Shown here: positions 30,588 to 51,317 of the stretch, piece by piece
Position numbering within the stretch: the first letter of the stretch is position 1
Layout: every line of letters starts with the position of its first letter
NCBI RefSeq assembly: GCF_035917675.1
Contig: NZ_CP109104.1
Span: forward strand, 7,998,001-8,062,000
DNA length: 64,000 bases
Direction of reading: 5' to 3'
Origin: Streptomyces sp. NBC_01775
GTDB lineage: Bacteria > Actinomycetota > Actinomycetes > Streptomycetales > Streptomycetaceae
Notes under the pieces: model-generated
Told to the model about the DNA's origin: nothing
Database searches by the model: none
The model's input: only the letters and a program-made list of their open reading frames with translations
Position numbers and translations under genes: made by a program

Positions 30588-30622
30588 TTGACGGAAGACT
30601 AGCTGTACTGAGTTCAGTTCTG
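30588..30622 (+). promoter_or_regulatory. putative promoter element and operator (site a) upstream of transporter
   Basis: A TTGACG (-35-like) at 30588-30593 is followed by TGAGTTCAGTTCTG at 30609-30622. The latter matches 12 of 14 positions of the TGARTTCAGTTCAA motif found upstream of six units in this locus. A bound regulator here would cover the expected -10 region. Confidence 0.65.
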
Positions 30623-30676
30623 TAGCCTCCGGGCGTCGGCACGGAACGACCTGTGCCGCAGGAAGGGGAGTCGGTC

Positions 30677-31978
30677 ATGAGCGTCACCCAGCCGTCCGCC
30701 GCACCAGGCGCAGAGCCGGCACCGCCCAGTCCGCGTTCCGTGCGCCGCGCGATGCTCGCCGGAAGCCTCGGCACGATGATCGAGTACTACGACTTCAGCG
30801 TTTACGGCTATCTGGCCGTGGCGATCGCCCCGCAGTTCTTTCCGAGCGGCGATCCGGCGGCCTCGCTGCTGGCGGCGCTCGCGGTGTTCGCCACCGGCCT
30901 TCTGGTACGGCCGATCGGCGGCATCTTCTTCGGACGGCTCGGCGACCGGCTGGGCCGCCGTAAGGCGCTGGTCTCCTCGGTGTTGTGCATGGGGGTCGCC
31001 AGCAGCATCACCGGGCTGCTGCCGACGTATCACCAGATCGGCGTGACGGCGGCGGTGCTGCTCTTCCTCACCCGGGTGGTGCAGGGCATCTCCTCGGGCG
31101 GGGAGTCCGTCGGCGCGTACGCCTACATCTACGAGTCGGCCCCGCCCCGGCGCCGGGCGTTCCTCGGCGCCTTCACGCCCATCGGGTCCAACCTCGGGTT
31201 CGCGCTGGCAGCCGCCACGGCGGGCGCGATCACCGGATTGACCACCGAGGGGCAGATGGAGGCGTGGGGCTGGCGGATCCCCTTCCTGATGGCTGTGCCG
31301 CTCACGTTGTTCTGCCTGTGGGCTCGGCTGCGGATCGAGGACACTCCCGAATTCGCGGCGGCTGCCGAACGCGAGGACATCCCCACCGCCCCGGTCCGCG
31401 AGGTCCTCTCGACGCACCGTACGGCGCTCCTCCAGGCCATGGGACTGGCGATGGCGCAAGGCGGCGCCATCTTCCTCGGACTGACGTACATCGGCATCTA
31501 CCTGACCAACAACCTGGGCTACGACCCGACCCAGGTGTTCTGGCTGACCTCGGGCGTCGTGCTCGTCACGGTGATACTCATGGTGCCGGTGGGCTGGCTC
31601 GCCTCCCGGTTCGGCTGCCGCCGCGTCCTGCTGGCCGGCATGCTGGGATTCCTGGTGACCGCCTACCCCGCCATGGTGCTGATGGGCCGGGACAACCTGG
31701 CCGTCGCAGGCGCGGCCTACGCCTTGTTCATGCTGAGCAGTGCGGTCGTGCAGGTCCCCGCGGCCAGCCTGTGGCCGCATCTGTTCGAGCGCCGGGTCCG
31801 CTACACCGGCATGGCGATCGGATACAACGTCGGCACCGTCCTCGCCGGTGGTACGGCGCCCTACATCGCGGCCTACCTGGTCGACCAGACCGGGAATCTG
31901 CTCTCCCCGGCCTTTTATGTCATGGGCGTCAGCGTGATCGGGATCGGCGCGCTCCTCACCGTCCGCAAGGACGTGTAG
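30677..31978 (+). CDS. MFS transporter, metabolite:H+ symporter (MHS) type
   Basis: A 433-residue permease with twelve predicted membrane helices. MHS-family marks are IEYYDFSVYGYLAVAIAPQFF in helix 1, the loop motif GRLGDRLGRRKALV between helices 2 and 3, and RVVQGISSGGESVGAYAY in helix 4. These proton symporters take up small organic acids or osmolytes. The ATG at 30677 follows GGAAGGGGAG. Its position at the edge of a CoA-dependent catabolic locus and the operator-like motif upstream suggest that it imports the pathway substrate, probably a carboxylate. Confidence 0.9.
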   Translation: MSVTQPSAAPGAEPAPPSPRSVRRAMLAGSLGTMIEYYDFSVYGYLAVAIAPQFFPSGDPAASLLAALAVFATGLLVRPIGGIFFGRLGDRLGRRKALVSSVLCMGVASSITGLLPTYHQIGVTAAVLLFLTRVVQGISSGGESVGAYAYIYESAPPRRRAFLGAFTPIGSNLGFALAAATAGAITGLTTEGQMEAWGWRIPFLMAVPLTLFCLWARLRIEDTPEFAAAAEREDIPTAPVREVLSTHRTALLQAMGLAMAQGGAIFLGLTYIGIYLTNNLGYDPTQVFWLTSGVVLVTVILMVPVGWLASRFGCRRVLLAGMLGFLVTAYPAMVLMGRDNLAVAGAAYALFMLSSAVVQVPAASLWPHLFERRVRYTGMAIGYNVGTVLAGGTAPYIAAYLVDQTGNLLSPAFYVMGVSVIGIGALLTVRKDV

Positions 31979-32059
31979 CCGCGCACCCGCCCCGGTGACC
32001 GCCCGTCGTGGGACCGGCGGTCACCGGACGTTTCCCGCTCCGGGGCAGGTGCCTCCCGG

Positions 32060-32869
32060 TCAGGAGCCGGGCTCGGTGGGAGCGGAAGGAGTGGTGGGAA
32101 CGGAAGGAGCAGTGGGGGCGGTGGGAGAAGCGTGGGCATGACCGGGCCGGCCGATGGTCTGGCCGCCGTCGACGAGGAACTCGCCGCCGGTGGTGTAGGA
32201 GGCGTCGTCGCCGGCGAGGAAGAGCACCATGCGGGTGACCTCTTCGGGCTCTCCGATGCGCGGCACCGGCTGCTGGGCGAACAGTTCGGGAGAGGCGCTC
32301 TCTCCCATGGGTGTCCGGATGACACCGGGGTGTACGGAGTTGACGCGTACCCCGGTGCCGGCCAGGTCCAGCGCCGCCGCCTTGGTCATGCCGCGGATGC
32401 CCCACTTGCTGGCGACGTAGCCGATGCCGTCGGCGAAGCCCGTGAGGCCGGCCGCCGAGGAGATGTTGACGACGGCTCCGCGACCGCGGCTGCGCATGCC
32501 GGGCAGGACGGTGTGCATGCCGAGGAAGGAGCCGACCAGATTGACGTCGAGGATCCGGCGGAACTGATCCGGCGACTGCGCCTCGACACCGCCGTAGTGC
32601 ATGATCCCCGCGTTGTTGACCAGGACATCCACGGGGCCGATGGTGTCCTCCACCGCGCGGACGACCGATTGCCACGAGTCTTCGCTGGTGACGTCGAGGT
32701 GGAAGTACCGCGCGTGGGGGAGTTCGCCGGCCAGGGCCGCTCCCTCGTCGTCCAGCAGATCGCAGATGGCGACCCGGGCGCCTTCCGCGGCCAGACCGCG
32801 TACGTGTGAGGCGCCCATGCCCCGGGCGCCACCGGTCACGATCGCGACCTTTTCGTCGAAGCGCATCAT
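32060..32869 (-). CDS. short-chain dehydrogenase/reductase (SDR)
   Basis: A 269-residue classical SDR with coenzyme motif TGGARGMG, NNAG, and catalytic Ser (NISSAAG) and YVASK. An Asp after the second beta strand (AICDLLDD) suggests NAD preference. It resembles 3-alpha/20-beta-hydroxysteroid dehydrogenase-like enzymes, which oxidise ring or chain alcohols. The C-terminal 30 residues are a Pro/Thr/Ser-rich extension unusual for the family, encoded by repetitive DNA. It lies 88 bp downstream of the zinc alcohol dehydrogenase gene on the same strand. Confidence 0.9.
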   Translation of the reverse strand: MMRFDEKVAIVTGGARGMGASHVRGLAAEGARVAICDLLDDEGAALAGELPHARYFHLDVTSEDSWQSVVRAVEDTIGPVDVLVNNAGIMHYGGVEAQSPDQFRRILDVNLVGSFLGMHTVLPGMRSRGRGAVVNISSAAGLTGFADGIGYVASKWGIRGMTKAAALDLAGTGVRVNSVHPGVIRTPMGESASPELFAQQPVPRIGEPEEVTRMVLFLAGDDASYTTGGEFLVDGGQTIGRPGHAHASPTAPTAPSVPTTPSAPTEPGS

Positions 32870-32957
32870 GATTCCCTTCTGCGGACGGTGTTGGTGGTCT
32901 GCGGGCGCCGTTGGCGGTCCGGGGCGGCCCGGGGAAAGCGTCGGCGGAGGGGCTGCT

Positions 32958-34049
32958 TCAGTCGGGCACCAGCACGGCCCGCCCCCGCACCCGGCCTCGC
33001 CGGAGCAGCTCGAACGCCTCCAGCCCGGCGGACAGCGGGAACCGCTCCGTCTCGACGTGGACCGCCCCCGACCGCGCCAGCGCGATGACCTCTGTGAGTT
33101 CGGGGTGGCTTCCCCAGAACGGCAGCGAGAGCGTGCAGCCCTGCGGCAGAACTCCCGGCTTCCGGACGGTCAGGTGGCCGCCGCCACTGCCGACCACCGC
33201 GAGTGCGCCACCCGCGCGGAGAGTGCTCGTCGCCAGCTCCATCGAAGCCGTGGTGCCGGCGAAGTCGAGCACGGCGTCCGCTCCGGGGCCTCCGCTCTCC
33301 GCCCTCAGCACACCGGCGGTGTCAGCGCGCAACAGCGTGCCGAAGTGCGCGCCGGAGCGGTGCGCGAGAGCGAGGGCTTCCTCCCGGATGTCGACCGCCA
33401 GAATCCGGCTCGGAGTGGTCGCGCGGAGAATCTGGACGGCCAGGTGGCCGAGCCCGCCGACACCGATGACGACGGCGGTGGAGCCTTCCCCGAGCGCGTG
33501 CCGCAGGCCGGATACGGCGTGGTACGACGTCAGGCCCGCGTCCGAGAGCGGCGCCGCCTGATCGGCCGCCAAGCCGTCGATCGGCACGAGATGGCGGGCG
33601 GACGGCACGAGTACGTACTCGGCCAGTCCGCCGTCCCGGCCCAGTCCGGCTCCGTGCCAGGCAAGGGTGTCACGCCGGTCGCAGTAGTTGTCCCTGCCCG
33701 CGGCGCACCGGTCGCAGATGCCGCAGCCCCACGGTCCGTACAGCGCCACGCGTGCGCCGATCGCGAGCTCGTGGGCGGCGGACCCGCCGTCGTCGGACCC
33801 GCCGTCGTCGGACCCGCCGTCGTCGGGTCCGAGCGCCGCGACGTGCCCGGCGACCTCGTGGCCCAAGGTGAACGGGAGCCGGTAGGGGAGAGTCCCCGGA
33901 GCGCTGTCGATGACATGCAGGTCGGAGTGGCAGAGTCCGGCGGCCTCCACCCGCACCAGCACCTCGCTGCCGTGCGGGACGGGCCGCTCGACCCGGGTCG
34001 GTGCCGGGAGTTCTCCCCAGGCCGTCATCCGCAGCGCCTTCATCTTCAC
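32958..34049 (-). CDS. zinc-dependent alcohol dehydrogenase (MDR)
   Basis: A 363-residue medium-chain dehydrogenase. Catalytic zinc ligands are in AGLCHSDLH and GHEVAGHV; the structural zinc loop CGICDRCAAGRDNYC has all four cysteines; the nucleotide motif is VIGVGGLGHLAVQIL. It should oxidise an alcohol to an aldehyde or ketone with NAD(P). Residues about 75-90 contain three DDGGS repeats encoded by a 15-bp tandem repeat, an insertion next to the catalytic domain. It is divergent from the SDR at 34136, with an 86-bp gap that holds operator site b. Confidence 0.92.
   Translation of the reverse strand: MKMKALRMTAWGELPAPTRVERPVPHGSEVLVRVEAAGLCHSDLHVIDSAPGTLPYRLPFTLGHEVAGHVAALGPDDGGSDDGGSDDGGSAAHELAIGARVALYGPWGCGICDRCAAGRDNYCDRRDTLAWHGAGLGRDGGLAEYVLVPSARHLVPIDGLAADQAAPLSDAGLTSYHAVSGLRHALGEGSTAVVIGVGGLGHLAVQILRATTPSRILAVDIREEALALAHRSGAHFGTLLRADTAGVLRAESGGPGADAVLDFAGTTASMELATSTLRAGGALAVVGSGGGHLTVRKPGVLPQGCTLSLPFWGSHPELTEVIALARSGAVHVETERFPLSAGLEAFELLRRGRVRGRAVLVPD
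33781..33825 (-). repeat. 15-bp tandem repeat, three copies, in alcohol dehydrogenase gene
   Basis: Three exact copies of GACCCGCCGTCGTCG (plus-strand reading) encode DDGGS repeats. The unit keeps frame, so slippage would only change the loop length. Confidence 0.9.
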
Positions 34050-34092
34050 CGTCCCAGGTCTTGTCAGCCGCGCAGCCGCACGATAACAGATA

Positions 34093-34106
34093 TGAAGTCA
34101 GTTCAA
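34093..34106 (+). promoter_or_regulatory. putative operator (site b)
   Basis: TGAAGTCAGTTCAA matches 13 of 14 positions of the locus motif. It sits between the divergent alcohol dehydrogenase and SDR genes, about 30 bp before the SDR start. Confidence 0.65.
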
Positions 34107-34135
34107 TAAAGATACGGGGACGAGGAGGGATCACC

Positions 34136-34972
34136 GTGGTGCTCAGTGATGTACGGGCGGACCGGTTCGCGGGCAAGGTCGCGATGGTGACGGGCGCCGG
34201 CTCCGGCATGGGGGCCGCTGTCGCCCGGCAGCTGGCCGCGGAAGGGGTGCGGGCGGTCGTCCTGGTGGACGTCAACGCCGAGGGTCTGGCAGCCGTCGCC
34301 GAGGAGTTGTCCCAGTTGCGCGAGCCGCCACTCGCCGGGCCCGCCGCCGAGCCGGTCACCCTCGACGTGGCGGACGCGGCAGGCGTCGACGGCGCGGTCC
34401 AGGACGTACTGCGCCGGCACGGGCGGCTCGACATCCTGGTGCACGCGGCCGGGGTCGACGACCCGGAGGTCAAGCGGCGGATCGCGGACGCGCTGGCCGC
34501 CGGGCGCCCGGCCGAGGTGACCGGCTCCCTCGACGACGCCTCCTGGCGGCGCGTGATGCGGGTGAATCTGGACGGCACCTTCCATGTGCTGCGCGCCGCG
34601 GTGCGCGCGATGCGGCCCGCCGGCGGCGGGGCGATCGTGGTGATCGGCTCCTCCTCGGCGTTCGACACTCCCGCCGGCTATCCCCACTACGCCGCGTCCA
34701 AGGCGGGGGTGCACGCGCTGAGCCAGGCCGTGGCCAAGGAGGTCATCGCGTCCGGGGTCCGCGTGAACGTGGTGGCCCCGGGGCCGACGGAGACGGGGAT
34801 GGCGGTGCGCACGCCCGCGTCGCTGCGCGCCGGTTTCGCGGACCCCGGGGTGCGCCCGTACGCGACGCCCGAGGAGATCGCCGGTATCGCCCTCTTCCTC
34901 GCGAGCGATGCCGCGGCGAACCTGGTCGGGGCGGTACTGCTCGCCAACGGGGGACGGTTCACGGTCGCATGA
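34136..34972 (+). CDS. short-chain dehydrogenase/reductase (SDR)
   Basis: A 278-residue SDR with VTGAGSGMGAAVA, a VLVDVN segment suggesting NAD, HAAG in place of NNAG, Ser in VVIGSSSAF, and YAASKAG. An insertion of about 20 residues between the NNAG-equivalent and the active site (EVKRRIADALAAG) is longer than usual. I chose the GTG at 34136 because GGAGG lies seven bases upstream. It is the first gene of the rightward group and directly follows operator site b. Confidence 0.9.
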   Translation: MVLSDVRADRFAGKVAMVTGAGSGMGAAVARQLAAEGVRAVVLVDVNAEGLAAVAEELSQLREPPLAGPAAEPVTLDVADAAGVDGAVQDVLRRHGRLDILVHAAGVDDPEVKRRIADALAAGRPAEVTGSLDDASWRRVMRVNLDGTFHVLRAAVRAMRPAGGGAIVVIGSSSAFDTPAGYPHYAASKAGVHALSQAVAKEVIASGVRVNVVAPGPTETGMAVRTPASLRAGFADPGVRPYATPEEIAGIALFLASDAAANLVGAVLLANGGRFTVA

Positions 34973-35024
34973 GGATGCGGGCCTCGCTCCTGGCGCCGCC
35001 CCTTCCAGGTCTTGCAATCCGAAT

Positions 35025-35038
35025 TGGATTCAGTTTAG
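35025..35038 (+). promoter_or_regulatory. putative operator (site c)
   Basis: TTGGATTCAGTTTAGC contains an 11-of-14 match to the locus motif. It lies 63 bp before the FAD oxidoreductase start, between it and the preceding SDR. Confidence 0.5.
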
Positions 35039-35101: not shown

Positions 35102-36442
35102 ATGCGCGCAGGAGACATCGATCTGCTGATCGTCGGTGCGGGTATGGCGGGACTGACCGCGGGCGCCCGCGCCGCCCGTGCAGGGCTGTCCGTGACAGTC
35201 GTCGAGATCGGCGCGGAGGTCGGCGGCTCCGCACGCTTCGCGGGGTACGCGTGGACCGCCCCCACCCACGAGGTCATGGACGAGCACAACCCGCGCGGGG
35301 ATGTCGCGCTCAAGCGCGCGCTCGTGGACCGTTTCGCCGACGGCATCTCCTGGATCCGCTCCGTCGGCGTGGCCGCCAAGGACCCACAGCCTGTCCTCAG
35401 CTTCGGCCGCGGGCACCAGTTCGACACCAATCACTACCTCGACACCTGCCGCCGGCTCCTCCTCGAAGGCGGTGGTGAGCTGCTGCTGCGGACCGACACC
35501 GAATGGCTGGTGGTCGAGGACGGTGCCGTGGCCGGAGCGGACCTGCGGTCGGCCGACGGCACGCGCCGGCGGGTACGTGCTCGCGCCACGCTCCTCGCGA
35601 CCGGCGGATTCCAGGGCGACCCCGCGCTCTGTTCCGCTCACGTACACCCCCACGCCGGCCGCATGGAACTCCGCTCGAACCCCCACAGCCGCGGCGGCGG
35701 CTACCGGCTGGCCACCCGGGCCGGAGCGGCCACCGGCCCCGACGAGGCGGGCTTCTACGGCCACCTCGTCCCCCGTGGCATCCCCTTCGCCGACCCCGCG
35801 GACTTCGTCGACATGTCGCTGTACTACAGCGAGCACGCCCTCCTGTTCAATCTGCGCAACGCCCGGTTCGCCGACGAGACGCTGGGCGACCACCTCACCG
35901 CCATGGAACTGCTGGAGCAGCCCGAGAGCCGCGGCCTTCTCATCGCCGACGTCCGGGTGTTCCGCGAGTGGGTCACCGGCTCGTACGTCGAGGGAGCCGT
36001 CGCCGTCGACAAGTTCGCCCTGGCGAGCAAGCGGGGCGGTCGCGTGGGGCTGGCCGAAGACATCGACGAACTCGCCTGTCTGCCGCCGGAGTGGGGCTAT
36101 GACGGAGAGTCCGTCCGCGACGCCGTCAAGCGATTCAACGAACGCGCCTCGGCGGGGCTGGAGCTGTCGCCCGGCCGGGAGCTGGACCGCCTCCCGCTGG
36201 ACGAACCGCCGTACTACGTCATCGAGACGGCCCCGGCCCTCACCTTCCCGTTCCACGGCCTGCGTATCGACGACCGGGCCCGCGTGCTGCGCGAGGACGG
36301 GCAGCCGGTCGGCGGACTCCTCGCCGCCGGATCGGACACCGGCGGCCTGTGGCACCGCGCCTACGCCGGCGGTCTGGCCTCGGCTCTGGTCTTCGGACTC
36401 ACCGCCGCGGACACCGCTGCCAAGACGGCTCGCCGCACCTGA
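35102..36442 (+). CDS. FAD-dependent oxidoreductase, succinate dehydrogenase/3-ketosteroid dehydrogenase-like
   Basis: A 446-residue flavoprotein of the fumarate reductase/3-ketosteroid-Delta1-dehydrogenase superfamily. The N-terminal FAD motif is LLIVGAGMAGLTAGARAA, followed by an acidic end to the second strand (VVEIGAEVGGSA) and LLATGGF. The C-terminal FAD-binding end is GLLAAGSDTGGLWHRAYAGGLASAL. It probably introduces a carbon-carbon double bond into, or reduces one in, a cyclic ketone or acid. The ATG at 35102 is preceded by GGAGGAGAGG. It is followed 33 bp later by an acyl-CoA dehydrogenase gene. Confidence 0.85.
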   Translation: MRAGDIDLLIVGAGMAGLTAGARAARAGLSVTVVEIGAEVGGSARFAGYAWTAPTHEVMDEHNPRGDVALKRALVDRFADGISWIRSVGVAAKDPQPVLSFGRGHQFDTNHYLDTCRRLLLEGGGELLLRTDTEWLVVEDGAVAGADLRSADGTRRRVRARATLLATGGFQGDPALCSAHVHPHAGRMELRSNPHSRGGGYRLATRAGAATGPDEAGFYGHLVPRGIPFADPADFVDMSLYYSEHALLFNLRNARFADETLGDHLTAMELLEQPESRGLLIADVRVFREWVTGSYVEGAVAVDKFALASKRGGRVGLAEDIDELACLPPEWGYDGESVRDAVKRFNERASAGLELSPGRELDRLPLDEPPYYVIETAPALTFPFHGLRIDDRARVLREDGQPVGGLLAAGSDTGGLWHRAYAGGLASALVFGLTAADTAAKTARRT

Positions 36443-36475: not shown

Positions 36476-37627
36476 ATGACAGCCCTTGACCGGATCGACC
36501 CTCAGCTGCTGTCCGAAACCGACGAACAGCGGCAACTGCGCGCCGTCCTGCGGGACTTCTACCGTGAGGCGAGCGGGCCCAAGGACGTCCGCGAGCACCT
36601 GGGCACCCCGCGTGGATACGACGAGTCGCTGTGGAAGCGGCTCGCAGGCGAGATCGGGGTCCACGGGCTGGTGATCCCCGAGGAGTACGGGGGGTCGGGC
36701 TTCACGTTCGCCGAACTGGCGGTGGCCCTGGAGGAGTCCGGACGGGCGTTGTACTGCGCGCCCCTGCTGCCCACGGTGGTCCTCGCCGCACACGCCCTGC
36801 TGGCGGGCGGGGAGCGGGCGGCGTGCGAGCGCTACCTGCCGCGGATCGCGGATGGCACGCTGACCGCCACCGTGGCCGGTTTCGACGCCGACGCACCCGG
36901 CGTCGCCGCCGAGCCGGCCGGCTCAGGCTGGGTGCTGCGCGGCCGGACGGACTTCGTGCTCGACGGGGCCGGCGCGGACCTCATCCTGGTACGGGCCGAT
37001 ACCGCCGCGGGCCCCCGGCTGTTCGCCTGCGAGCCGGTCATGGACACCTGCCGGCGTACTCCGCGCCGTGTCCTGGACGAGACGCGCCGCCAGGCGCTGG
37101 TGGAGTTCCGGGGGGCGCCGGCCGGGGCCGTGGGCGTGGCGGAGCACACCGGGACCGCCGAGCACGCCGTCTCGGCGACCCTCGACACCGGGCGCGCCGC
37201 GCTGGCGGCCGAGCAGGTCGGCGGAAGCGGCCACGCGCTGGACGCCACGGTCGAGTTCGTCTCCCAGCGTCACCAGTTCGGGCGCCCCATCGGCTCCTTC
37301 CAGGCGGTCAAGCACCGGTTGGCCGACGTGCTGGTCGCGCTGGAGGCGGCGCGCTCGGCGTCGGCGTACGCGGCGGTCTGCGTCGCCGTCGCCTCGCCAC
37401 AGCTTCCGGTGGCGGCCGGTACCGCCGCCGTGGTCTGCTCCGAGACCTTCCGGCTGGCGACGGCCGAGTACGTCCAATTGCACGGCGGTATCGGCTTCAC
37501 CTGGGAGCACCCCGCGCATCTGTACGTGCGCCGGGCACGCAGCAGCGAGGCGCTGTTCGGCACCGCGGACCACCACCGGGTCCGGCTCACCCAACTCATA
37601 GGGCTCGCCGGGCGGCCCGCCGCCTGA
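36476..37627 (+). CDS. acyl-CoA dehydrogenase
   Basis: A 383-residue flavoprotein of the acyl-CoA dehydrogenase family. It has LVIPEEYGGSGFTFAELAVALEESGRAL at the N-terminus, the RHQFGRPIGSFQAVKHRLADVLV helix, and C-terminal YVQLHGGIGFTWEHPAHLYVRRAR. The central beta domain is short and diverged, and the residue equivalent to the catalytic Glu of the classical enzymes is not evident at the usual place. This is typical of one subunit of the actinobacterial heteromeric steroid- and terpene-type dehydrogenases. It is cotranscribed with the two neighbouring flavoprotein genes. Confidence 0.9.
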   Translation: MTALDRIDPQLLSETDEQRQLRAVLRDFYREASGPKDVREHLGTPRGYDESLWKRLAGEIGVHGLVIPEEYGGSGFTFAELAVALEESGRALYCAPLLPTVVLAAHALLAGGERAACERYLPRIADGTLTATVAGFDADAPGVAAEPAGSGWVLRGRTDFVLDGAGADLILVRADTAAGPRLFACEPVMDTCRRTPRRVLDETRRQALVEFRGAPAGAVGVAEHTGTAEHAVSATLDTGRAALAAEQVGGSGHALDATVEFVSQRHQFGRPIGSFQAVKHRLADVLVALEAARSASAYAAVCVAVASPQLPVAAGTAAVVCSETFRLATAEYVQLHGGIGFTWEHPAHLYVRRARSSEALFGTADHHRVRLTQLIGLAGRPAA

Positions 37628-41853: not shown

Positions 41854-41858
41854 TCCGA

Positions 41859-42248
41859 ATGGTCACGGATCCGGGGAGCCCGGCCACAGCCGGGGCCGGG
41901 CTCCAGGGCTCACGCTGCTTCGACTGTTCGGTGACCGTCTACCCCGCGGACGACGCGTGCCCGCGCTGCGGGGGACCGGCCGGTCCTGCGGTTCTGAGCG
42001 GCACGGGCACGCTGTGGACCTGGACGGTCCAGCGGTATCCCCCCAAGTCACCGCCCTACCAGCCCCCTGCCGGCGGCTTCGCGCCGTTCGCGCTGGGCTA
42101 CGTCCAACTGACGGAAGGCGTGCGGGTGGCGGCCGTCCTGGAGGTCGACGACCTGGACGGGCTTCGCATCGACATGCCCCTCACGGTGACCGCCGGCGAG
42201 GGCGTCCCGCGGGCCAGGCCCACCACAGCCGCCGAGGGGGGCTCATGA
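41859..42248 (+). CDS. DUF35 OB-fold/zinc-ribbon protein, thiolase partner
   Basis: A 129-residue protein. An N-terminal rubredoxin-like zinc ribbon (CFDCSVTVYPADDACPRCGG, four Cys) precedes an OB-fold (GTLWTWTVQRYPPKSPPY; PFALGYVQLTEGVRVAAVLE). Such proteins bind CoA-thioester partners and are obligate companions of some SCP2-type thiolases or aldolases. The ATG at 41859 lies six bases after the crotonase stop, and the stop overlaps the thiolase start (ATGA), consistent with a heteromeric complex. Confidence 0.9.
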   Translation: MVTDPGSPATAGAGLQGSRCFDCSVTVYPADDACPRCGGPAGPAVLSGTGTLWTWTVQRYPPKSPPYQPPAGGFAPFALGYVQLTEGVRVAAVLEVDDLDGLRIDMPLTVTAGEGVPRARPTTAAEGGS

Positions 42249-43390
42249 GCAGCGACGTCCTGATCTGCGGCGCCGGGCGTACCCCGTTCGGGCGGCCGGA
42301 GGCGAGCGGCCGTCAGCTGGCCGTCGGCGCGGTCGGTGCCGCGCTCGCGGACGCCGGGATCGAGTGGTCGCGGGTGGGCGCGGCGTTCGGCGGCAGCGAC
42401 AGCGCCGGGCTCGCCGACACTCTGGTGGCCCAACTGGGCCTGACCGGGCTTCCGTTCGTCAACGTCAAGAACGGCTGCGCGACCGGTGGCAGCGCGCTGG
42501 TCTCCGCCGTGAACGCGATCCGCTCCGGCATGGCGGACGTCGTCCTCGCCGTCGGGTTCGACAAGCACCCGCGCGGTGCCTTCGACCCGCGGCCGGAGGA
42601 CTGGGGCCTGGGAGCGGAGTACGGCAGCGACGGGCTGATGGTGACCACCCAGTTCTTCGGGATGAAGATCCGGCGCTATATGCATGACCACGGGATCACG
42701 CCGCGGGCCCTGGCCCTGGTCGCCGAGAAGGCGTACCGCAACGGGGCCCATACCCCCGAGGCCTGGCGGCGCAAGCCGGTGTCCGCCGCGGAGATCCTCG
42801 ACTCGGGCATGGTCAGCGATCCGCTGACCCGCTACATGTTCTGCTCCCCGGGAGCCGGCGCGGCGGCGCTCGTCCTCTGTTCGCCCGAGGCCGCCCGCAC
42901 CCTGGAGGGGCTCCCGGTCACCCTGCGCTCCGCAGCCGTACGCACGCGCCGCTTCGGGTCCTTCGAGGTGTTCAGCCCCTGGATCCCAGGGGGCGAGCTG
43001 ACCAGCGTCAGCCGCGACGCCTCGGCCGCCGCCTTCGAGGAGGCGGGCATCGGACCTGGCGACGTCAACGTCTGCCAGCTCCAGGACACCGAGAGCGGCG
43101 CCGAGGTCATGCACATGGCCGAGTGCGGCTTCTGCGAGGACGGCGAACAAGAAGAGCTGATCGGCTCGGGCGCCACGGAGATCGGCGGCACCCTGCCGGT
43201 CAACACCGACGGCGGCTGCCTCGCCAACGGCGAACCCATCGGTGCCTCGGGGCTGCGGCAGGTCTACGAAATCGTCCAGCAGCTGCGCGGACGGGCCGGA
43301 GAGCGCCAGGTCCCCGGCGAACCCAGGGTCGGTTTCACCCACGTGTACGGGGCGCCCGGCGTCAGCGCCTGCACGGTGCTGTCCCGCTGA
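42245..43390 (+). CDS. SCP2-type thiolase-like enzyme
   Basis: A 381-residue thiolase-fold protein. The acyl-carrying Cys is in NVKNGCATGGSAL. The late motif reads GGCLANGEPIGASGLRQVYE, where classical thiolases have GHPxGATG, so the catalytic His position is Glu. This subclass usually works with a DUF35 subunit, here encoded immediately upstream, and may carry out thiolysis or retro-aldol cleavage of a CoA thioester. The ATG overlaps the DUF35 gene stop by 4 bp. Confidence 0.88.
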   Translation: MSSDVLICGAGRTPFGRPEASGRQLAVGAVGAALADAGIEWSRVGAAFGGSDSAGLADTLVAQLGLTGLPFVNVKNGCATGGSALVSAVNAIRSGMADVVLAVGFDKHPRGAFDPRPEDWGLGAEYGSDGLMVTTQFFGMKIRRYMHDHGITPRALALVAEKAYRNGAHTPEAWRRKPVSAAEILDSGMVSDPLTRYMFCSPGAGAAALVLCSPEAARTLEGLPVTLRSAAVRTRRFGSFEVFSPWIPGGELTSVSRDASAAAFEEAGIGPGDVNVCQLQDTESGAEVMHMAECGFCEDGEQEELIGSGATEIGGTLPVNTDGGCLANGEPIGASGLRQVYEIVQQLRGRAGERQVPGEPRVGFTHVYGAPGVSACTVLSR

Positions 43391-43415
43391 ACGGAGGTAC
43401 GGAGGTGAGGAAGAG

Positions 43416-44624
43416 ATGAGCGGCATCCCGGAACCGGAGGAGTTCCGCGCACAGGCCCGGCAGTGGCTCGCCACGGCGGCCCGTCCGCGCGCCGCCGAAG
43501 GCGAGTGGGGCAGCGGATCCGACTCCGTCGCCGTGTTCGAGAACTGGACCGAGCAGCAGGAGCGCGAGCACACCGCCCGCGTCCAGGAGTGGGAGCGCAC
43601 CCGCTACGACGCGGGGTGGGGCGCGCTCAACTGGCAGGAGACATACGGGGGCCGCGGCCTGCCCGCGTACTACGAGCAGCTCTACCGGGCCGAAGAGGCC
43701 GCCTTCGACGTGCCGCACCGCACCGAGATCTTCCCGGTGACCCAGCAGCTCGTCGCCCCGGCCATCGGCGTGTGGGGCACCGAGGAGCAAAAGCTCCGCT
43801 GGCTGCGTCCCATGCTGCGCACGGACGAGCTGGCCTGCCAGCTGTTCTCCGAGACCGAGGCGGGCTCCGACCTCGCCGCGGTACGGACGAAGGCGGTGCG
43901 CGACGGCGACACCGCGAACTGGGTGCTGGACGGCCACAAGGTATGGACCTCCGGGGCCCCGGTCGCGACCTGGGGCGTCGCGGTGTGCCGCACCGATCCC
44001 GGTGTGCGCAAACACGCGGGCATCACCGTCTTCCTGGTGCGCATGGACGCGCCGGGCGTCACCGTGCGGCCCATCCGGCAGATGACGGGCGGCACCAGCT
44101 TCAACGAGGTCTACCTCGACGGCGTGGTGGTGCCCGACGCCGACCGGCTCGGACCGGTCGACGGGGGCTGGCGGGTCGCCCTCAGCGTGCTGGCGGCCGA
44201 ACGGCTCGACTCCGGCAACCTCGGTCTGGGCAACGCCGACCGGGCGCTCGAACTGGCCAGGAACCTGCCACGCGCGCTCACCGGCGGCGAAGCGCAGCGG
44301 GCCGCGGACCTTCACATCCGCGCTCTCGTGCAGCGGCTGATCGGACTGCGGGTGACCGCGGCGCTCGTCGCCGGACGTGAGCCCGGCGCGGAAGCCTCGG
44401 TCGGCAAGCTCTACGCCACCGAGACCATGCGGCGCACCGGCGACCTCGTGTCGGAGCTGCTGGGGCCGAGCCTCGTCGCGGACACGGGGGAGTGGGGCAC
44501 CTACGCCTGGACGGAGCACCTGCTCGGCGCCCCCGGCTACAGCATCGCGGGCGGCACCGACGAGATCCAGCACAACATCCTCGCCGAGCGCGTGCTCGGC
44601 CTGCCCAAGGAGCCCGTCCGATGA
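43416..44624 (+). CDS. acyl-CoA dehydrogenase
   Basis: A 402-residue acyl-CoA dehydrogenase. It has NWQETYGGRGLPAYYEQLYRAEEAAF, the FAD/substrate motif CQLFSETEAGSDLAAVRTKAV, GHKVWTSGAPVATWGVAVCRTDP, and the C-terminal APGYSIAGGTDEIQHNILAERVLGLPKE. It lacks a peptide extension. The ATG at 43416 follows GAGGAAGAG. Its stop overlaps the start of the kinase gene (ATGA). Confidence 0.92.
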   Translation: MSGIPEPEEFRAQARQWLATAARPRAAEGEWGSGSDSVAVFENWTEQQEREHTARVQEWERTRYDAGWGALNWQETYGGRGLPAYYEQLYRAEEAAFDVPHRTEIFPVTQQLVAPAIGVWGTEEQKLRWLRPMLRTDELACQLFSETEAGSDLAAVRTKAVRDGDTANWVLDGHKVWTSGAPVATWGVAVCRTDPGVRKHAGITVFLVRMDAPGVTVRPIRQMTGGTSFNEVYLDGVVVPDADRLGPVDGGWRVALSVLAAERLDSGNLGLGNADRALELARNLPRALTGGEAQRAADLHIRALVQRLIGLRVTAALVAGREPGAEASVGKLYATETMRRTGDLVSELLGPSLVADTGEWGTYAWTEHLLGAPGYSIAGGTDEIQHNILAERVLGLPKEPVR

Positions 44625-45619
44625 GCACGGACCCTACGGACACCGAGGTGGCTGACGGCGAGGTGACGGAGCTGGCCGCCCGCGTCCGCGACCGTCTCGC
44701 CCGTCGGCACCCGGGGGCGGAGATCGGGGAGTTGCGTACGCTGCCGGGCGGCCACTCGGGGCTGACGTACTCGGTCACCGCCGGGGATGCCAGGTACGTC
44801 GTGAAGGCGGTGCCACCGGGGCAGCGGCCTGTGGGCCGCAACGACGTGCTGCGCCAGGCGCGGGTGCTGGGCGCGCTCGCCGGATCCCCCGTGCCGGTGC
44901 CGGGCATCGCCGCTGTCGAGGAGAGCCGGCCGGCCTGGTTCGCCATGGACTTCGCCGCCGGGGAGGCCGTCGAGCCCGTGCTCGACGAGCCCGAGGTGCC
45001 CGCCGCCACGGCCCGCAACCGGATGCTCGCCATCGCCCCCGTGCTGCGCAGGCTGCACGAGACCGATCTGCGCACGCCAGGACTCGACGCGCCGGAACCG
45101 CTCGACGCGCCTGGGGAGCTGGAGCGGTGGAGTCGCACCATGCACGCCGTACCCGCCGAACTGCGGCCCGGAGGCGAGGAGTTGCTCGCACGCCTGGCCG
45201 ACGACGTGCCCAGGGGTCTCCCGCCGGTGCTGCTCCACGGCGACTTCCGGCTCGGCAACGTGCTGTGCACCGGTGACCGTCCGGACGCCGTCGTCGACTG
45301 GGAGATCTGGAGCGTCGGGGACCCGCGCATCGACCTGGGGTGGTTCCTGCTCTTCGTCGACCACCGGAACTTCCCCGAACTGGGGCGCGCCGTACCGAGC
45401 CTGCCCACCGAGTCCGAACTGCTGGACGCCTACCTCGACGGGCGGCCCGCACTGCCCTCGATGGGCTGGTTCCGGGCGCTCGGCCGGATGAAGATGGCCG
45501 CGATCATGGGCCACAACCTGCGCCGGCACCGGGAGGGCAAACACCACGACCCGGACCAGGAGCGACTGCCGCCGACCATCGCCGCGATGATCCGCACGGC
45601 GCGCGACATCCTCGGCTGA
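44621..45619 (+). CDS. aminoglycoside-phosphotransferase-fold kinase (ACAD11 N-domain/LvaA-like)
   Basis: A 332-residue protein kinase-like small-molecule kinase. It has GGHSGLTYSV near the N-terminus, the catalytic loop LLHGDFRLGNVL (HxDxxxxN) and metal-binding VVDWEIWSVGDPRIDLGW. The sequence and context (sandwiched between acyl-CoA dehydrogenases) match the kinase half of ACAD10/ACAD11 and bacterial LvaA, which phosphorylate hydroxyacyl-CoAs, not antibiotics. It is coupled to the upstream dehydrogenase by an ATGA overlap and lies 38 bp before the ACAD11-like dehydrogenase gene. Confidence 0.88.
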   Translation: MSTDPTDTEVADGEVTELAARVRDRLARRHPGAEIGELRTLPGGHSGLTYSVTAGDARYVVKAVPPGQRPVGRNDVLRQARVLGALAGSPVPVPGIAAVEESRPAWFAMDFAAGEAVEPVLDEPEVPAATARNRMLAIAPVLRRLHETDLRTPGLDAPEPLDAPGELERWSRTMHAVPAELRPGGEELLARLADDVPRGLPPVLLHGDFRLGNVLCTGDRPDAVVDWEIWSVGDPRIDLGWFLLFVDHRNFPELGRAVPSLPTESELLDAYLDGRPALPSMGWFRALGRMKMAAIMGHNLRRHREGKHHDPDQERLPPTIAAMIRTARDILG

Positions 45620-45656
45620 TCCGGACCAACCACTCGAATCCCGGACAGGAGCAATC

Positions 45657-46894
<1,238 letters not shown>

Positions 46895-46898
<4 letters not shown>

Positions 46899-47671
46899 AC
46901 ACCCACACCCTGGAGGGCCGGGTCGCCGTCATCACCGGCGGATCCCGGGGCATCGGTCTCGGGATCGCCGCGGCCTACCGGGCAGCCGGCGCGCACGTGG
47001 TGATCGCCGCCCGCAAGGCGGCCGGACTCGCCGAGGCACGCGAGGAGTTGCTGCGCGTCAAGGGCGACGGCGACCTCCACACGGTCGTGGCCAACGCCGG
47101 CGAACCCGACCAGGCCGAAGCGTGCGCCGAGGAGACCATGGCCCGCTTCGGCCGGATCGACATCCTCGTCAACAACGCGGCCACCAACCCGTACCACGGC
47201 GACCTGCTCGACCTGGACCTGCCGCGTGCGGAGAAGACCGTCCGGGTCAACCAGTACGGCATGATCGCCTGGACCCGCTGCGCCTGGCGGGCCTGGATGG
47301 CCGAGCACGGGGGAGCGGTGGTCAACATCGCCTCCGTCGGAGGGCTGATAGTCGACCCCCACATCGGCTACTACAACGCCACCAAGGCCGCCATGCTGCA
47401 CATGACCCGGCAGCTCGCCTACGAACTGGGGCCGCGCGCACGCGTCAACGCCATCGCCCCCGGACTGATCAAGACGGAGCTGGCACGGGCGGTGTGGGAG
47501 GCGCGCGAGCCCATCCTCACCGCCAAGCTGCCGCTGCGGCGCCTGGGCACCGTGGAGGACGTCGCGAACGCGGCGCTGTTCCTGGCCTCCGACGCCTCCT
47601 CCTGGATGACAGGCCAGACCCTGGTGCTCGACGGCGGCGCCACCGTCCTGCCGATCGGGGTGGACGAATGA
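46895..47671 (+). CDS. short-chain dehydrogenase/reductase (SDR)
   Basis: A 258-residue SDR with ITGGSRGIGLGIAA, ILVNNAATNPY, Ser in VVNIASVGG and YYNATKAAM. The segment VVIAARK (small/basic) may favour NADP. It is translationally coupled to both neighbours by 4-bp overlaps. It likely acts on a hydroxyacyl- or ketoacyl-CoA of the same pathway. Confidence 0.9.
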
Positions 47672-48435
47672 GCCGGCCGCGACCCGCAGCGGAGCTGTTC
47701 TCGCTGGAGGGCAGGACCGCGATCGTCACCGGCGCCTCCTCGGGGCTCGGCGCACGCTTCGCCACCGTCCTCGCCCAGGCCGGGGCCACCGTCTTCGCCG
47801 CCGCCCGCCGCGTGGACCGGCTGAAGGAACTCGCCGGCTCCGACGAGCGCATCCACCCGGTGGGCTGCGACGTCTCACAAGAAGCCGACCGGGTGCGGCT
47901 CGCCGAGGCGGCGGTGACCGCCACCGGCCGGATCGACGTCCTGGTCAACAACGCCGCCGCATCCGGCGAGACACGCGCCGAGGACGAGTCCCCGGAGACC
48001 TTCTCCGACGTGCTCGGCGTGAACCTGACCGGGCCCTTCCACCTGGCCCGGCTCGCGGCCGAAGCTCCCGGCGAGCGCAAGAGCGTCGTCAATGTCGCCT
48101 CCATCCTCGGCCTGGTCACCGCAGCCCCCCTCGGCGGGGCGAGCTACTCGGCGTCGAAGGCCGGGCTGATCGGTCTGACCCGCGAGCTGGCCGGGCAGTG
48201 GGGCCGCGCCGGAACACGGGTCAACGCACTCGCCCCAGGCTGGTTCCGCACCGAGATGACCGCCGACCTGTTCGGCGACGAGCGCTCCAGCCGCTGGGTC
48301 GAGCGCAACACGCTGCTGCGCCGCGGCGGCGACGAGCACGAACTCGACGGCGCGCTGCTCTTCCTCGCCTCGGACGCCTCCTCGTACTGCACCGGTCAGG
48401 TCCTGACCGTCGACGGCGGCTGGACGGCACGATGA
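47668..48435 (+). CDS. short-chain dehydrogenase/reductase (SDR)
   Basis: A 255-residue SDR with VTGASSGLGARFAT, VLVNNAAASGE, NVASILG and YSASKAG, ending CTGQVLTVDGGW. The AARRVDR segment suggests NADP. The start and stop both overlap neighbours (ATGA). It may act on a different chirality or chain position from the preceding paralog; the two are only distantly alike. Confidence 0.9.
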   Translation: MSRPRPAAELFSLEGRTAIVTGASSGLGARFATVLAQAGATVFAAARRVDRLKELAGSDERIHPVGCDVSQEADRVRLAEAAVTATGRIDVLVNNAAASGETRAEDESPETFSDVLGVNLTGPFHLARLAAEAPGERKSVVNVASILGLVTAAPLGGASYSASKAGLIGLTRELAGQWGRAGTRVNALAPGWFRTEMTADLFGDERSSRWVERNTLLRRGGDEHELDGALLFLASDASSYCTGQVLTVDGGWTAR

Positions 48436-49226
48436 GTGTCGGCATCGAGATCCACGACGGCGGCCTCGCCCACGTCACCCTGAGCCGGGCCGAGGCGGGC
48501 AACGCCATCGGCCTGGAGACGGCACACGGACTGCGGGAAGCGGCACACGCCTGCGCACGCGAGGACGTGCGGGCCGTGCTGCTCGACGGCGAGGGAAGGT
48601 CCTTCTGCGTCGGCGGCGACCTCAGAGAGTTCTCCCGGTTCTCCGGCGAGTCCCTGGAGAGGCACCTCCTCGCGGTGACCGAGGCGCTGCACGACGCCTT
48701 GCGCACCTTCGCCACGATCGACGCGCCCATGGTGGCCGCCGTGCAGGGGGCGGTCGCGGGCGCGGGCATCGGCCTGGCCTCGGCCGCCGATGTGACCCTG
48801 GCCGCCGATGACGCCTCGTTCACCGCGGCCTACACGGCCATCGGCTACTCGCCGGACGCCGGCGTGAGCTGGTTCCTGCCCCGGCTCGTCGGCCCCAAGC
48901 GGGCCCTGGACCTGCTGCTGACCAACCGTCAGGTACCGGCGGCGGAAGCCGCGGCACTCGGCATGGTGAGCCAGGTCGTCCCCGCCGACCGGCTCGCTGC
49001 TGAGGCCGCCCGCACAGCGGAGGTCCTGCGGCGCGGGCCCACGGCCGCCTTCGGCGCCACCCGCCGGCTCGTGGCCTCCGGCATGACGGCCGACCTGGGC
49101 GCGCACCTGGACCGCGAGTCCGCCGCGCTGGCCGCCGCTGCCGCGTCCGCCACGGGCCGCGAGGGCGTCGCGGCCTTCCTCGGCAAGCGGGCGCCCGAGT
49201 TCACGCGCGTCCCGCCCCGATCCTGA
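48432..49226 (+). CDS. enoyl-CoA hydratase/isomerase, PaaG-like
   Basis: A 264-residue crotonase. It has the oxyanion motif SFCVGGDLREFSRFS and AVQGAVAGAGIGLASAADV, then FTAAYTAIGYSPDAGVSWFLPRLVG. The first Glu of hydratases is replaced (GAGIGLA), while an Asp sits in SPDAGVS, the pattern of the PaaG/DCI isomerase branch. It therefore probably shifts a double bond. The ATG overlaps the SDR stop. Confidence 0.88.
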   Translation: MSVGIEIHDGGLAHVTLSRAEAGNAIGLETAHGLREAAHACAREDVRAVLLDGEGRSFCVGGDLREFSRFSGESLERHLLAVTEALHDALRTFATIDAPMVAAVQGAVAGAGIGLASAADVTLAADDASFTAAYTAIGYSPDAGVSWFLPRLVGPKRALDLLLTNRQVPAAEAAALGMVSQVVPADRLAAEAARTAEVLRRGPTAAFGATRRLVASGMTADLGAHLDRESAALAAAAASATGREGVAAFLGKRAPEFTRVPPRS

Positions 49227-49255
49227 CCCCCTCTCCCGAACCCCTGGAGACCGCC

Positions 49256-50404
49256 GTGTCCCAAGCATTCATCGTCGGAGCCGTCCGCACCCCCGTCGGC
49301 CGCCGAGGCGGCGCGCTGAGCACCGTGCACCCTGCCGACCTCGGCGCACACGCGCTGCGCGCGCTGCTGGAGCGCACCGGCGTGGACCCGGGCGCCGTCG
49401 ACGACGTGTACTTCGGCTGCGTGAGCCAGATCGGCGCACAGACCGGAAACATCGCACGTACCGCGTGGCTGTCCGCGGGACTGCCGCAGCACGTCCCCGG
49501 TACCACCGTCGACCGCCAGTGCGGATCCTCCCAGCAGACCGTGCACTTCGCCGCCCAGGCCGTCGCATCCGGTACCGCCGACCTGGTGGTCGCGGGCGGT
49601 GTGGAGGTCATGAGCCTGGTGCCCATCGCCAGCCCCATGACCGTCGGCGAACAGGCCGGTATGGGCAGTCCGTACGCGGGGGAGGGCTGGCGCGAGCACT
49701 TCGGGGACCAGGAGGTCTCGCAGTTCCGCGGCGCCGAGCTGATCGCCGACAAGTGGGCGGTCTCGCGCGCGGACATGGAGCAGCTCGCGCTCACCAGCCA
49801 CCAACGGGCCCTCGCAGCCCAGGCCGACGGGGCCTTCGGCAAGGAGATCGTCCCGGCCTTCGGGCTCACCGCGGACGAGTGCCCCCGGGCCGACACCACG
49901 CTGGAGAAGATGGCGGGGCTGAAGACCCTCACCGAGGACGGCCGGCTGACCGCCGCCGTCTCCAGCCAGATCGCCGACGGCGCCGCAGCGCTGCTGATCG
50001 CCTCCGAGGAAGCGGTACGCCGCCACGGGCTGACCCCGCTGGCCCGTGTGCACACCATGGCCGTGGTCGGCTCCGATCCGATCCACATGCTGACCGGTCC
50101 GATCCCCGCCACGGAAAAGGTCCTGGGCAAGGCCGGGCTGTCGATCGAGGAGATCGACCTGATCGAGATCAACGAGGCATTCGCCCCCGTCGTCCTCGCC
50201 TGGCAGAAGGAGACCGGCGCCGCCCAGGAGCGGGTCAACGCCTTCGGCGGCGCCATCGCCCTCGGGCATCCGCTCGGCGCCACGGGTGCCCGCCTGATGA
50301 CCACGCTCGTTCACCAGCTGCGCAGGACCCGGGGACGCTATGGTCTCCAGACGATGTGCGAGGGCGGCGGAATGGCGAATGCCACCGTGCTCGAATCCTG
50401 CTGA
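49256..50404 (+). CDS. acetyl-CoA C-acyltransferase (thiolase)
   Basis: A 382-residue classical thiolase with nucleophile Cys in TVDRQCGSSQQT, the NEAFAPV motif, GGAIALGHPLGATGAR with the catalytic His, and the second Cys in MCEGGGMAN. It cleaves 3-ketoacyl-CoA to acetyl-CoA and a shortened acyl-CoA and completes beta-oxidation for this locus. The GTG start lies 29 bp after the crotonase gene, with CCTGGAGA upstream. It ends the main operon; the TetR gene follows. Confidence 0.94.
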   Translation: MSQAFIVGAVRTPVGRRGGALSTVHPADLGAHALRALLERTGVDPGAVDDVYFGCVSQIGAQTGNIARTAWLSAGLPQHVPGTTVDRQCGSSQQTVHFAAQAVASGTADLVVAGGVEVMSLVPIASPMTVGEQAGMGSPYAGEGWREHFGDQEVSQFRGAELIADKWAVSRADMEQLALTSHQRALAAQADGAFGKEIVPAFGLTADECPRADTTLEKMAGLKTLTEDGRLTAAVSSQIADGAAALLIASEEAVRRHGLTPLARVHTMAVVGSDPIHMLTGPIPATEKVLGKAGLSIEEIDLIEINEAFAPVVLAWQKETGAAQERVNAFGGAIALGHPLGATGARLMTTLVHQLRRTRGRYGLQTMCEGGGMANATVLESC

Positions 50405-50425
50405 TTCCCCCCCCTGATTGGCAAC

Positions 50426-50439
50426 TGAGTTCAACTTGG
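50426..50439 (+). promoter_or_regulatory. putative operator (site e), degenerate
   Basis: TGAGTTCA, an exact left half of the locus motif, is followed by a diverged right half (ACTTGG). It lies 51 bp upstream of the TetR start and may mediate autoregulation. Confidence 0.5.
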
Positions 50440-50490
50440 GTCTACTCTCGGTTACCGAAATGGTGGAGGGACGGCCAGAAGAGAGGGTCC

Positions 50491-51111
50491 ATGGCGAGGA
50501 TCGTTGAGCCGGAAGCGGGACCGAGGTCCAAGCGGGGAGCCATTCTGACGGCCGCCGTCGACTGCTTCGGCGAGACCGGCTTCGAGGCCACCAAGTGGTC
50601 CACGGTCGCGGAGCGGGTGGGCATCGGGCAGACCGCCCTGTACCACTACTTCGAGTCCAAGACCCACTGCCTGCTCACCATCATGCGGCTGGAGCTCCAG
50701 CGCTCCCACGACAAGTTCACGGAGGCCACCGCGGACGTCGAGGACCCGGTCGAGGCGCTGCGGGCCGCGGTCCGCGCGGCGTACGACGTCTCCGAGCTGG
50801 AGGTCCTTCAGATGCGCATCCTGCAAAACCACATCGACCTGCTCTCCGGCGAGCGCAAGTCCAAGCGCGAGGAGGCCGAGCGCGTGGCGGCACGACGGCT
50901 GGTCCAGCTGGTCGAGCGCGACTGGACGAACCTTCTCGTACGGGGCATGTCCCAGGGGGCGTTCCCGCTGCGGGACGCGCAGCTGCTCGGCGCGAGCGTG
51001 CTCGGTCTCATCGTCAGCGTGTGGCGGTGGTACCGGCCGTCGGGGCCGACGCCCCTGTCGGAGATCAGTGAACTGATCGAGGGAGCCTGCGTCCGTATGG
51101 TCGCCACCTGA
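50491..51111 (+). CDS. TetR-family regulator, probable regulator of the catabolic locus
   Basis: A 206-residue regulator with N-terminal HTH WSTVAERVGIGQTALYHYFESK and an all-helical C-terminal domain. It begins MARIVEPEAGPRSKRGAIL. Its place at the end of the main operon, with operator-like sites on both sides (50426 and 51304), makes it the prime candidate for binding TGARTTCAGTTCAA, with an acyl-CoA as the likely inducer, as for FadR/KstR-type repressors. The ATG at 50491 follows GAGAGGG. Confidence 0.9.
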   Translation: MARIVEPEAGPRSKRGAILTAAVDCFGETGFEATKWSTVAERVGIGQTALYHYFESKTHCLLTIMRLELQRSHDKFTEATADVEDPVEALRAAVRAAYDVSELEVLQMRILQNHIDLLSGERKSKREEAERVAARRLVQLVERDWTNLLVRGMSQGAFPLRDAQLLGASVLGLIVSVWRWYRPSGPTPLSEISELIEGACVRMVAT

Positions 51112-51303
51112 CGCCCGCGAGCCCTCGCGTCTCCTTCAGGCCCCCGGCCCCCTGACGAACATCCGGACGGTTCGGCAGGGGGCTTTCCGCTGTCCTGGCG
51201 GGCCTCGGCTGCCTTGGGGCGCTCCGGGCCGTACCGAGGGGGCGGCCGGTCCGGGGCCGGCTCTTGCCAGGTGTGTTTCCCGGGGATTACGATCCTTCTG
51301 AAC

Positions 51304-51317
51304 TTGAACTGAACTCA
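51304..51317 (-). promoter_or_regulatory. putative operator (site f), perfect match on minus strand
   Basis: The reverse complement reads TGAGTTCAGTTCAA, a full match. It lies 22 bp before a short frame at 51339 and upstream of the NTF2-like/EthD/ligase genes. Confidence 0.7.

Follow-up and report, generated by a model that had tools for sequence, protein, structure and literature searches.

Six copies of a short inverted repeat in a 64,000-nt stretch of the genome of Streptomyces sp. NBC_01775 (9.34 Mb, two contigs) are very probably the operators of a single regulon. The whole stretch is called the window below, and its genes are named by their start positions. A dimer of the TetR-type protein encoded at 50491 would repress a transporter gene, an alcohol dehydrogenase (ADH)/SDR dehydrogenase pair, a flavoprotein unit, a beta-oxidation operon and an NTF2-EthD-ligase unit, as well as, weakly, its own gene, and would be released by a coenzyme A (CoA) thioester. 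We hold the regulon itself, as read from sequence, with high confidence. Comparison of genomes establishes the reality of the sites, their conservation, their position at promoters or operon heads, and their linkage to 50491 and not to a second TetR gene at 29687. We infer that 50491 physically binds the sites and that it represses rather than activates; the most tentative parts of the proposal are that an acyl-CoA is the inducer and that the substrate is an alicyclic or hydroxylated acid.

In the proposed mechanism, the 50491 dimer (TetR_C_24 family) would bind the 19-bp inverted repeat AACTGAA-YTSAR-TTCAGTT. The bound protein would block RNA polymerase at the promoters of the five units and, more strongly there than at its own promoter, keep them silent until it is released from the DNA by one of the pathway's CoA thioesters. 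An inducer of this kind is suggested by the enzyme content of the cluster and by the resemblance of the system to KstR2.

Candidate operator sites in the window

An earlier note on this DNA had proposed six sites on the basis of the 14-mer TGARTTCAGTTCAA. Both strands of the window were scanned with this pattern, allowing up to three mismatches, and five of the six sites were recovered where the note had placed them, with the match counts it gave: two mismatches at 30609, one at 34093, three at 35025, and none at 41037 and at 51304 (minus strand). The sixth, at 50426, is a half match, as the note had stated; it lies beyond three mismatches, but the other-genus matrix described below gives it 21.0 bits. 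The scan returned eight matches, compared to 0.94 ± 0.98 expected and a maximum of four in 100 shuffles; these include reverse-strand readings of two of the sites (at 30603 and 41031) and an unrelated match with three mismatches at 17761. The gene annotation agrees with the note in placing the sites upstream of the transporter, ADH/SDR, flavoprotein, beta-oxidation, TetR and NTF2-EthD-ligase genes. The site at 35025 is real, but is better read as 35017–35035.

The six top scores of the other-genus matrix in the window are the six sites (30.4, 27.1, 26.9, 26.3, 26.1 and 21.0 bits). The seventh, 18.3 bits at 30484, just exceeds the maximum of 60 column-permuted matrices (17.8 bits), and the maximum in 20 shuffles was 15.1 bits. 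Beyond these seven, nothing in the window exceeds 14 bits. In several relatives, a second site is found further upstream of the transporter gene, beside the gene labelled ACAD-d.

On the scale of the whole genome, the best matches concentrate in the window. With TGARTTCAGTTCAA, all three places with at most one mismatch are inside it, as is one (30609) of the eight places with two mismatches. A re-registered pattern, MTGARYTSARTTCAR, occurs with at most one mismatch at six distinct places, four of them inside the window, and the core pattern CTGARTTCAGTT is found exactly at two places in the genome, both inside. The random genomic distribution that the earlier note had named as grounds for refutation is therefore not what the scan returned. 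A 15-mer one mismatch away from the operator pattern is found at two distal places (G000:C1:6515025 and 8069730 / L104:7723), one of which stands shortly before an SDR gene; a comparison of the surroundings of these two places revealed no similarity to each other.

Predicted operator structure and promoter geometry

The consensus of the sites is a 19-bp inverted repeat whose half-site centres are 10 bp apart. When CTGAA/TTCAG half-sites were counted at a match of at least 8/10, a 5-bp spacer was compatible with 288 of 311 sites, no spacer with 255 and a 10-bp spacer with 177. Since a spacer of 5 bp fits most sites, the register of the original 14-mer was replaced by CTGAA-N5-TTCAG, of which the 14-mer is a shifted reading. 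The 10-bp distance, one helical turn, would suit a single TetR-type dimer. Half-sites also occur in staggered pairs: at least one pair is well matched in 195 of 226 sites, and both in 18. Because both pairs fit so rarely, a one-dimer site is the simpler reading, and two dimers are a minor possibility.

The first gene of the beta-oxidation operon is ECH. The TTGACA hexamer of its promoter is present in all 19 aligned orthologous promoters (21 were available), and the operator begins 2 bp after the −10 hexamer (hexamers assigned by eye), so that transcription would be expected to start beneath the bound protein. At the promoter of the TetR gene itself, the site AACTGAGTTCARCTTGGG is found in 13 of 13 aligned promoters from near-clade Streptomyces. 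The claim that TTGAC(A/G) elements accompany two of the sites in a typical repressor arrangement stands for the ECH operon, but not for the transporter, where the TTGACG beside 30609 is missing from all five other MFS promoters aligned. Repression is the likely mode of action, as the ECH operator follows a conserved promoter and the TetR site lies within a promoter spacer.

Conservation within Streptomyces

To compare the regulon across the genus, 295 Streptomyces genomes were searched with the 50491 protein. An ortholog was found in 23 (the source genome and 22 others, at 74–95% identity; next best match at most 36%), leaving 272 without one. For 21 of the 22 other genomes, some 33 kb around the ortholog was compared, and for the last one a short contig; the regions were thus picked by the presence of the TetR gene. 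The catabolic genes are kept in most of them, with rearrangements. In genome G122 the set is reduced to ECHb, TetR, MBL and SDR-d; the contig of G261 carries the downstream part alone.

The pattern TGARTTCAGTTCA, at up to two mismatches, has 184 matches in the 23 regions, whereas its reversal has 7. Of the 23 genomes with a 50491 ortholog, 22 contain an exact 13-bp core (37 matches), as do 10 of the 272 without (one match each; Fisher p = 1.7e-24); the reversed 13-mer has no match in the 295 whole genomes. The remaining genome with an ortholog, G239, has imperfect sites only. By this comparison, the motif tracks 50491 orthologs across the genus.

The position of the sites relative to genes was expressed as the number of Streptomyces regions in which a gene has a site scoring more than 18 bits in the 220 bp before it, over the number of regions with that gene. 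Sites precede ECH in 21 of 21 regions, ADH in 16 of 16, the MFS transporter in 7 of 7 and SDR-b (34136 type) in 17 of 18. Own sites are rare for HCDH (1/4) and thiolase (1/15), and none precedes SDR-a (0/8), OYE (0/6), TetR 29687 (0/7) or DUF3048 (0/1). The eight named downstream genes of the main operon have at most 1/15 (thiolase), and otherwise none in 21–22 regions. Summed over ten intra-operon genes (SCP-thiolase, ACAD-b, APH, ACAD-c, SDR-c, ECHb, NTF2b, EthD, ligase and MBL; a set chosen after seeing the table), the count is 0 of 215.

Sites also accompany genes that have moved. The ADH/SDR pair lies about 67 kb from the TetR gene in G292 and about 24 kb in G140, with sites retained in both. 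Beside the relocated pair of G292, genes for a Peripla_BP_4 protein, a BPD_transp_2 permease and a GMC oxidoreductase have sites near their starts. An ABC-type transporter is seen in place of the MFS protein beside moved ADH/SDR genes at L215:3472-7033 and L216:3541-7061 (domains were scanned in L215 only). Genome G196 contains a second module (L218:4011-5220) with ECH (~54% similar), thiolase (~65% similar) and strong operator copies, which suggests that the pathway has been duplicated, or has a parallel, with control of the same kind. Elsewhere, at L219, a matrix match of 19.9 adjoins a DUF5753 gene.

Conservation across genera

Relatives of 50491 were collected from named genomes; the best 80 of 146 comprise 49 Streptomyces loci and 31 loci from other genera, with identity to 50491 reaching down to 56%. 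The scan words were taken from the recognition region, whose conservation among these relatives is consequently by construction. The other genera among the best 80 are Lentzea, Kibdelosporangium, Amycolatopsis, Sphaerisporangium, Saccharothrix, Nonomuraea, Pseudonocardia, Actinoplanes, Prauserella, Dietzia, Nocardioides, Nocardia, Actinomycetospora, Saccharopolyspora and Rhodococcus.

A symmetric matrix of 24 columns was built from the 31 other-genus loci only, with seeds chosen by means of the original consensus. Applied to 22 Streptomyces regions, it finds 128 sites above 18 bits, one of them within a mapped gene, and none in shuffled sequence; it also finds sites in 49 of the 49 named Streptomyces loci. 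In the opposite direction, a matrix built from Streptomyces detects sites at all but one of the 31 other-genus loci (98 sites, none in shuffled sequence). Sites precede ECH in 17 of 27 and TetR in 19 of 31 other-genus cases, and in most of the ten ECH misses the available sequence ends about 45 bp or less from the gene start. Separate transcription units thus begin with a common site that is kept across species. The proposal that the copies define a regulon gains from this: the same sites precede the same units in Streptomyces and in other actinobacterial genera, even after rearrangement.

Probable identity of the regulator and alternative explanations

The regulator of the sites is most probably 50491, judging from its distribution. 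It is shared by all 23 regions (as follows from the way they were chosen), has a site at its own promoter, and is present where an ortholog of 29687 is missing. A site occurs in the neighbourhoods of 23 of 23 50491 orthologs and of 0 of 7 distant paralogs. Co-occurrence alone cannot separate 50491 from the other genes of the cluster, as the regions were found through it; G122, in which most catabolic genes are gone and the TetR gene and three sites are kept, helps in this respect. The predicted structure of 50491 is of low confidence (mean pLDDT 54.7). The TetR protein 29687, which the earlier note had also considered, adjoins the transporter and the first site, is a TetR_C_24 protein as well, and has degenerate motif copies near the start of its counterparts in G196 and G011. 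Relatives of at least 53% identity are present in 10 of the 23 genomes. However, the best match in the other 13 does not exceed 39%, all 13 keep two to seven sites in the region, and the mapped copies of 29687 uniformly lack an upstream site at the threshold given above. We therefore set 29687 aside as a very improbable regulator of these sites.

If 50491 does bind the sites, it could act as an activator, or as both activator and repressor. FasR is an example of an activating TetR-family protein, and the MFS and ADH sites lie about 55–70 bp before the start codons, where no promoter elements could be assigned. The ECH operator directly after the −10 hexamer and the TetR-gene operator inside a promoter spacer argue for repression, and activation seems unlikely, though a shade less so than control by 29687. 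The motif is A+T-rich and located in promoter regions, as a basal promoter element or the signature of a sigma factor would be, but it is an inverted repeat at varied distances from start codons, coexists with separate −35 and −10 hexamers at ECH, and is nearly confined to one regulon genome-wide. Chance likeness among A+T-rich intergenic stretches might be expected in so far as the compared windows are A+T-rich islands in a genome of 72% G+C; conservation at fixed places across genera speaks against it, and permuted-column matrices do not rise above their 17.8-bit peak on the same stretches. We give hardly any credence to either of these last two explanations.

Several observations weigh against a regulon controlled by 50491 as proposed here. 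Choosing regions through the TetR gene confounds linkage to this gene with linkage to the rest of the cluster. Coverage is partial for NTF2-like genes (14/22; the gene in the window starts 230 bp beyond its operator and hence falls outside the 14), the FAD gene (7/13), TetR (9/23) and ACAD-a (8/20), and low for ACAD-d (4/15) and SDR-d (1/22). The TetR gene's own site is weak in the window and degenerate in six promoters of the clade at 75% identity. The ten exact cores in genomes lacking the TetR gene exceed the reversed-pattern control, distal sites also stand at 6515025 and 8069730 of the source genome, and an exact-core site in G096 (L217:5605, 29.1 bits) precedes a baeRF-family gene that is far from the cluster and has no evident bearing on the pathway. 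Reversed sequences also score: 30 matches above 18 bits, compared to 128 forward, in the 22 regions; 39 of the 49 Streptomyces loci; and 25, compared to 98, in the other genera. Each of the 30 matches in the 22 regions mirrors a real site, and reversed sequence is a poor, non-independent control because reversed operators still score. Finally, the case is built on sequence comparison.

Genes of the locus

The genes of the window were annotated by Pfam and NCBIfam profile searches (Table 1). The main operon reads ECH, a ChsH2-type OB-fold protein (41850–42248), an SCP2/thiolase-like protein, an acyl-CoA dehydrogenase, an APH-family kinase, a second acyl-CoA dehydrogenase, an SDR, another ECH and a thiolase. 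Protein 50491 matches TetR_N (PF00440; 49.3 bits, cut-off 24) and TetR_C_24 (PF17932; 54.0 bits, cut-off 26.4). Downstream, the small proteins encoded at 51550 and 51957 resemble SnoaL/NTF2 weakly, with scores that do not reach the Pfam cut-off; they are followed by an EthD-family protein at 52413 and an AMP-forming acid-CoA ligase at 52848. Hints of cyclic-acid metabolism (ChcB1, ChcB2, ChcC-like and cyclohexanecarboxylate-CoA ligase) are all below NCBIfam cut-offs, as is the mycofactocin old-yellow-enzyme match, and ECH has no match to solved structures at E 1e-50. Next to the cluster, at 58965–63412, are genes of the lantibiotic dehydratase (LanB) and LanC-like types; this region, which the earlier note had called a kinase/dehydrogenase module, reads as a lanthipeptide-type biosynthesis locus.

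Table 1. Predicted features of the proposed regulon and its surroundings in the window.
Feature	Position	Strand	Basis or remark
Possible weak seventh site, unproven	30484–30507	+	18.3 bits; upstream of MFS gene
Operator before MFS gene, TACTGAG-TTCAG-TTCTGTA	30606–30624	+	26.3 bits
MFS transporter, metabolite/H+ symporter type (below NCBIfam cut-off)	30677–31978	+	Pfam, NCBIfam
SDR dehydrogenase, probably downstream of ADH	32060–32869	−	Best NCBIfam match ChcB1-like, 262.8 bits (cut-off 400)
Zinc-type alcohol dehydrogenase (ADH), divergent from SDR 34136	32958–34043	−	Pfam
Operator between divergent ADH and SDR, ATATGAA-GTCAG-TTCAATA	34090–34108	+	26.9 bits
SDR dehydrogenase	34136–34972	+	Domain search
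Operator before FAD flavoprotein gene, ATCCGAA-TTGGA-TTCAGTT	35017–35035	+	27.1 bits
FAD_binding_2 flavoprotein (ketosteroid dehydrogenase/fumarate reductase superfamily)	35102–36442	+	Pfam, NCBIfam
Acyl-CoA dehydrogenase	36476–37627	+	Pfam; no own site seen in window
FadH/old-yellow-enzyme-type reductase	37646–39592	+	Best NCBIfam match mycofactocin OYE 2, 328 bits (cut-off 793)
3-Hydroxyacyl-CoA dehydrogenase	39756	−	Pfam/NCBIfam
ECH operon promoter: −35 TTGACA 41003–41008, 17 bp, −10 CAGACT 41026–41031	41003–41031	+	By eye
ECH operon operator, TAATGAA-TTCAG-TTCAATT	41034–41052	+	30.4 bits, best in window
Main operon	41065–50404	+	Starts with ECH; Pfam/NCBIfam
Weak operator at TetR promoter	50423–50441	+	21.0 bits; between TTGGCA 50418–50423 and TCTACT 50441–50446 (hexamers by eye)
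TetR_C_24 family regulator, proposed repressor	50491–51111	+	Pfam
Operator before NTF2-like/EthD/ligase unit	51302–51320	−	26.1 bits
NTF2-EthD-ligase unit	51550–55475	+	Ends with metallo-beta-lactamase-fold hydrolase

Comparison with known systems

In openly licensed PMC papers, the scope of our literature search, we found nothing relevant on such a gene cluster and no description of the motif letters or of such a regulon, which fits the claim that the regulon was previously unmarked. On balance, we lean slightly towards a broader view, in which this is a widely conserved, undescribed actinobacterial regulon, extending from Streptomyces to Rhodococcus and Nocardia. It would combine a KstR2-related repressor with an operator of its own, CoA-thioester sensing and probably a pathway for a cyclic or hydroxylated acid, with peripheral parts swapped between lineages under the same operator. 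The transporter may be one such part: an MFS protein here, and in G292 a gene adjoining an ABC-type permease and binding protein. If correct, the regulator–operator pair would be recognisable by sequence in many actinobacterial genera, the operator would gather the scattered genes of a catabolic pathway, and the question of the substrate would become testable through a defined operator and regulator.

Operators of the QacR type are described, in PMC4482099, as 28-bp elements bound by a double dimer (tetramer). The half-sites here repeat at 5-bp steps and could fit two overlapping dimers, but the small number of sites with both staggered pairs well matched (18/226) sets them apart. QsdR of Rhodococcus erythropolis, a TetR repressor of 186 residues, also acts on an actinobacterial operon, one that encodes an acyl-CoA ligase together with a lactone hydrolase (PMC6262395). 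QsdR differs in its shorter protein, an operator that is not resolved to the present motif, and another gene set.

With every NCBIfam regulator model tried, protein 50491 falls well short of the cut-off. KstR, the repressor of the mycobacterial cholesterol regulon, resembles it as a TetR-family protein that controls a lipid/acyl-CoA catabolic regulon through an inverted-repeat operator. The protein match is, however, weak (29.7 bits), and 50491 reaches 41.6 bits with the NCBIfam KstR model (cut-off 280). The KstR motif, TAGAACNNGTTCTA, has only matches with three mismatches in the window (9, compared to 3.0 expected), none of them at the six sites.

KstR2 responds to a steroid-derived CoA thioester. 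In PMC3068626, it is the TetR repressor that controls cholesterol ring degradation in mycobacteria and Rhodococcus, with the operator AnCAAGnnCTTGnT and orthologs that share more than 50% identity. The same text describes features that resemble the present system: a TetR-type regulator with a short inverted repeat at several promoters of a nearby catabolic cluster, its own promoter included. By sequence, KstR2 is also among the nearest solved relatives of 50491. The gene set is nevertheless different, and the similarity is low when compared by score (52.2 bits, E 6.7e-13, to the solved 4w1u). AnCAAGnnCTTGnT has no match with up to one mismatch in the window, nor does a stricter KstR2 16-mer with up to three; neither the KstR2 nor the KstR operator accounts for the motif at the sites. 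Some database entries for 50491 orthologs are named KstR2 or cholesterol catabolism regulator. Judged by operator and protein similarity, these automatic names are not supported, and would be corrected if our interpretation holds. The regulon thus appears to work like those of the KstR2 type, yet under a regulator distinct from KstR2.

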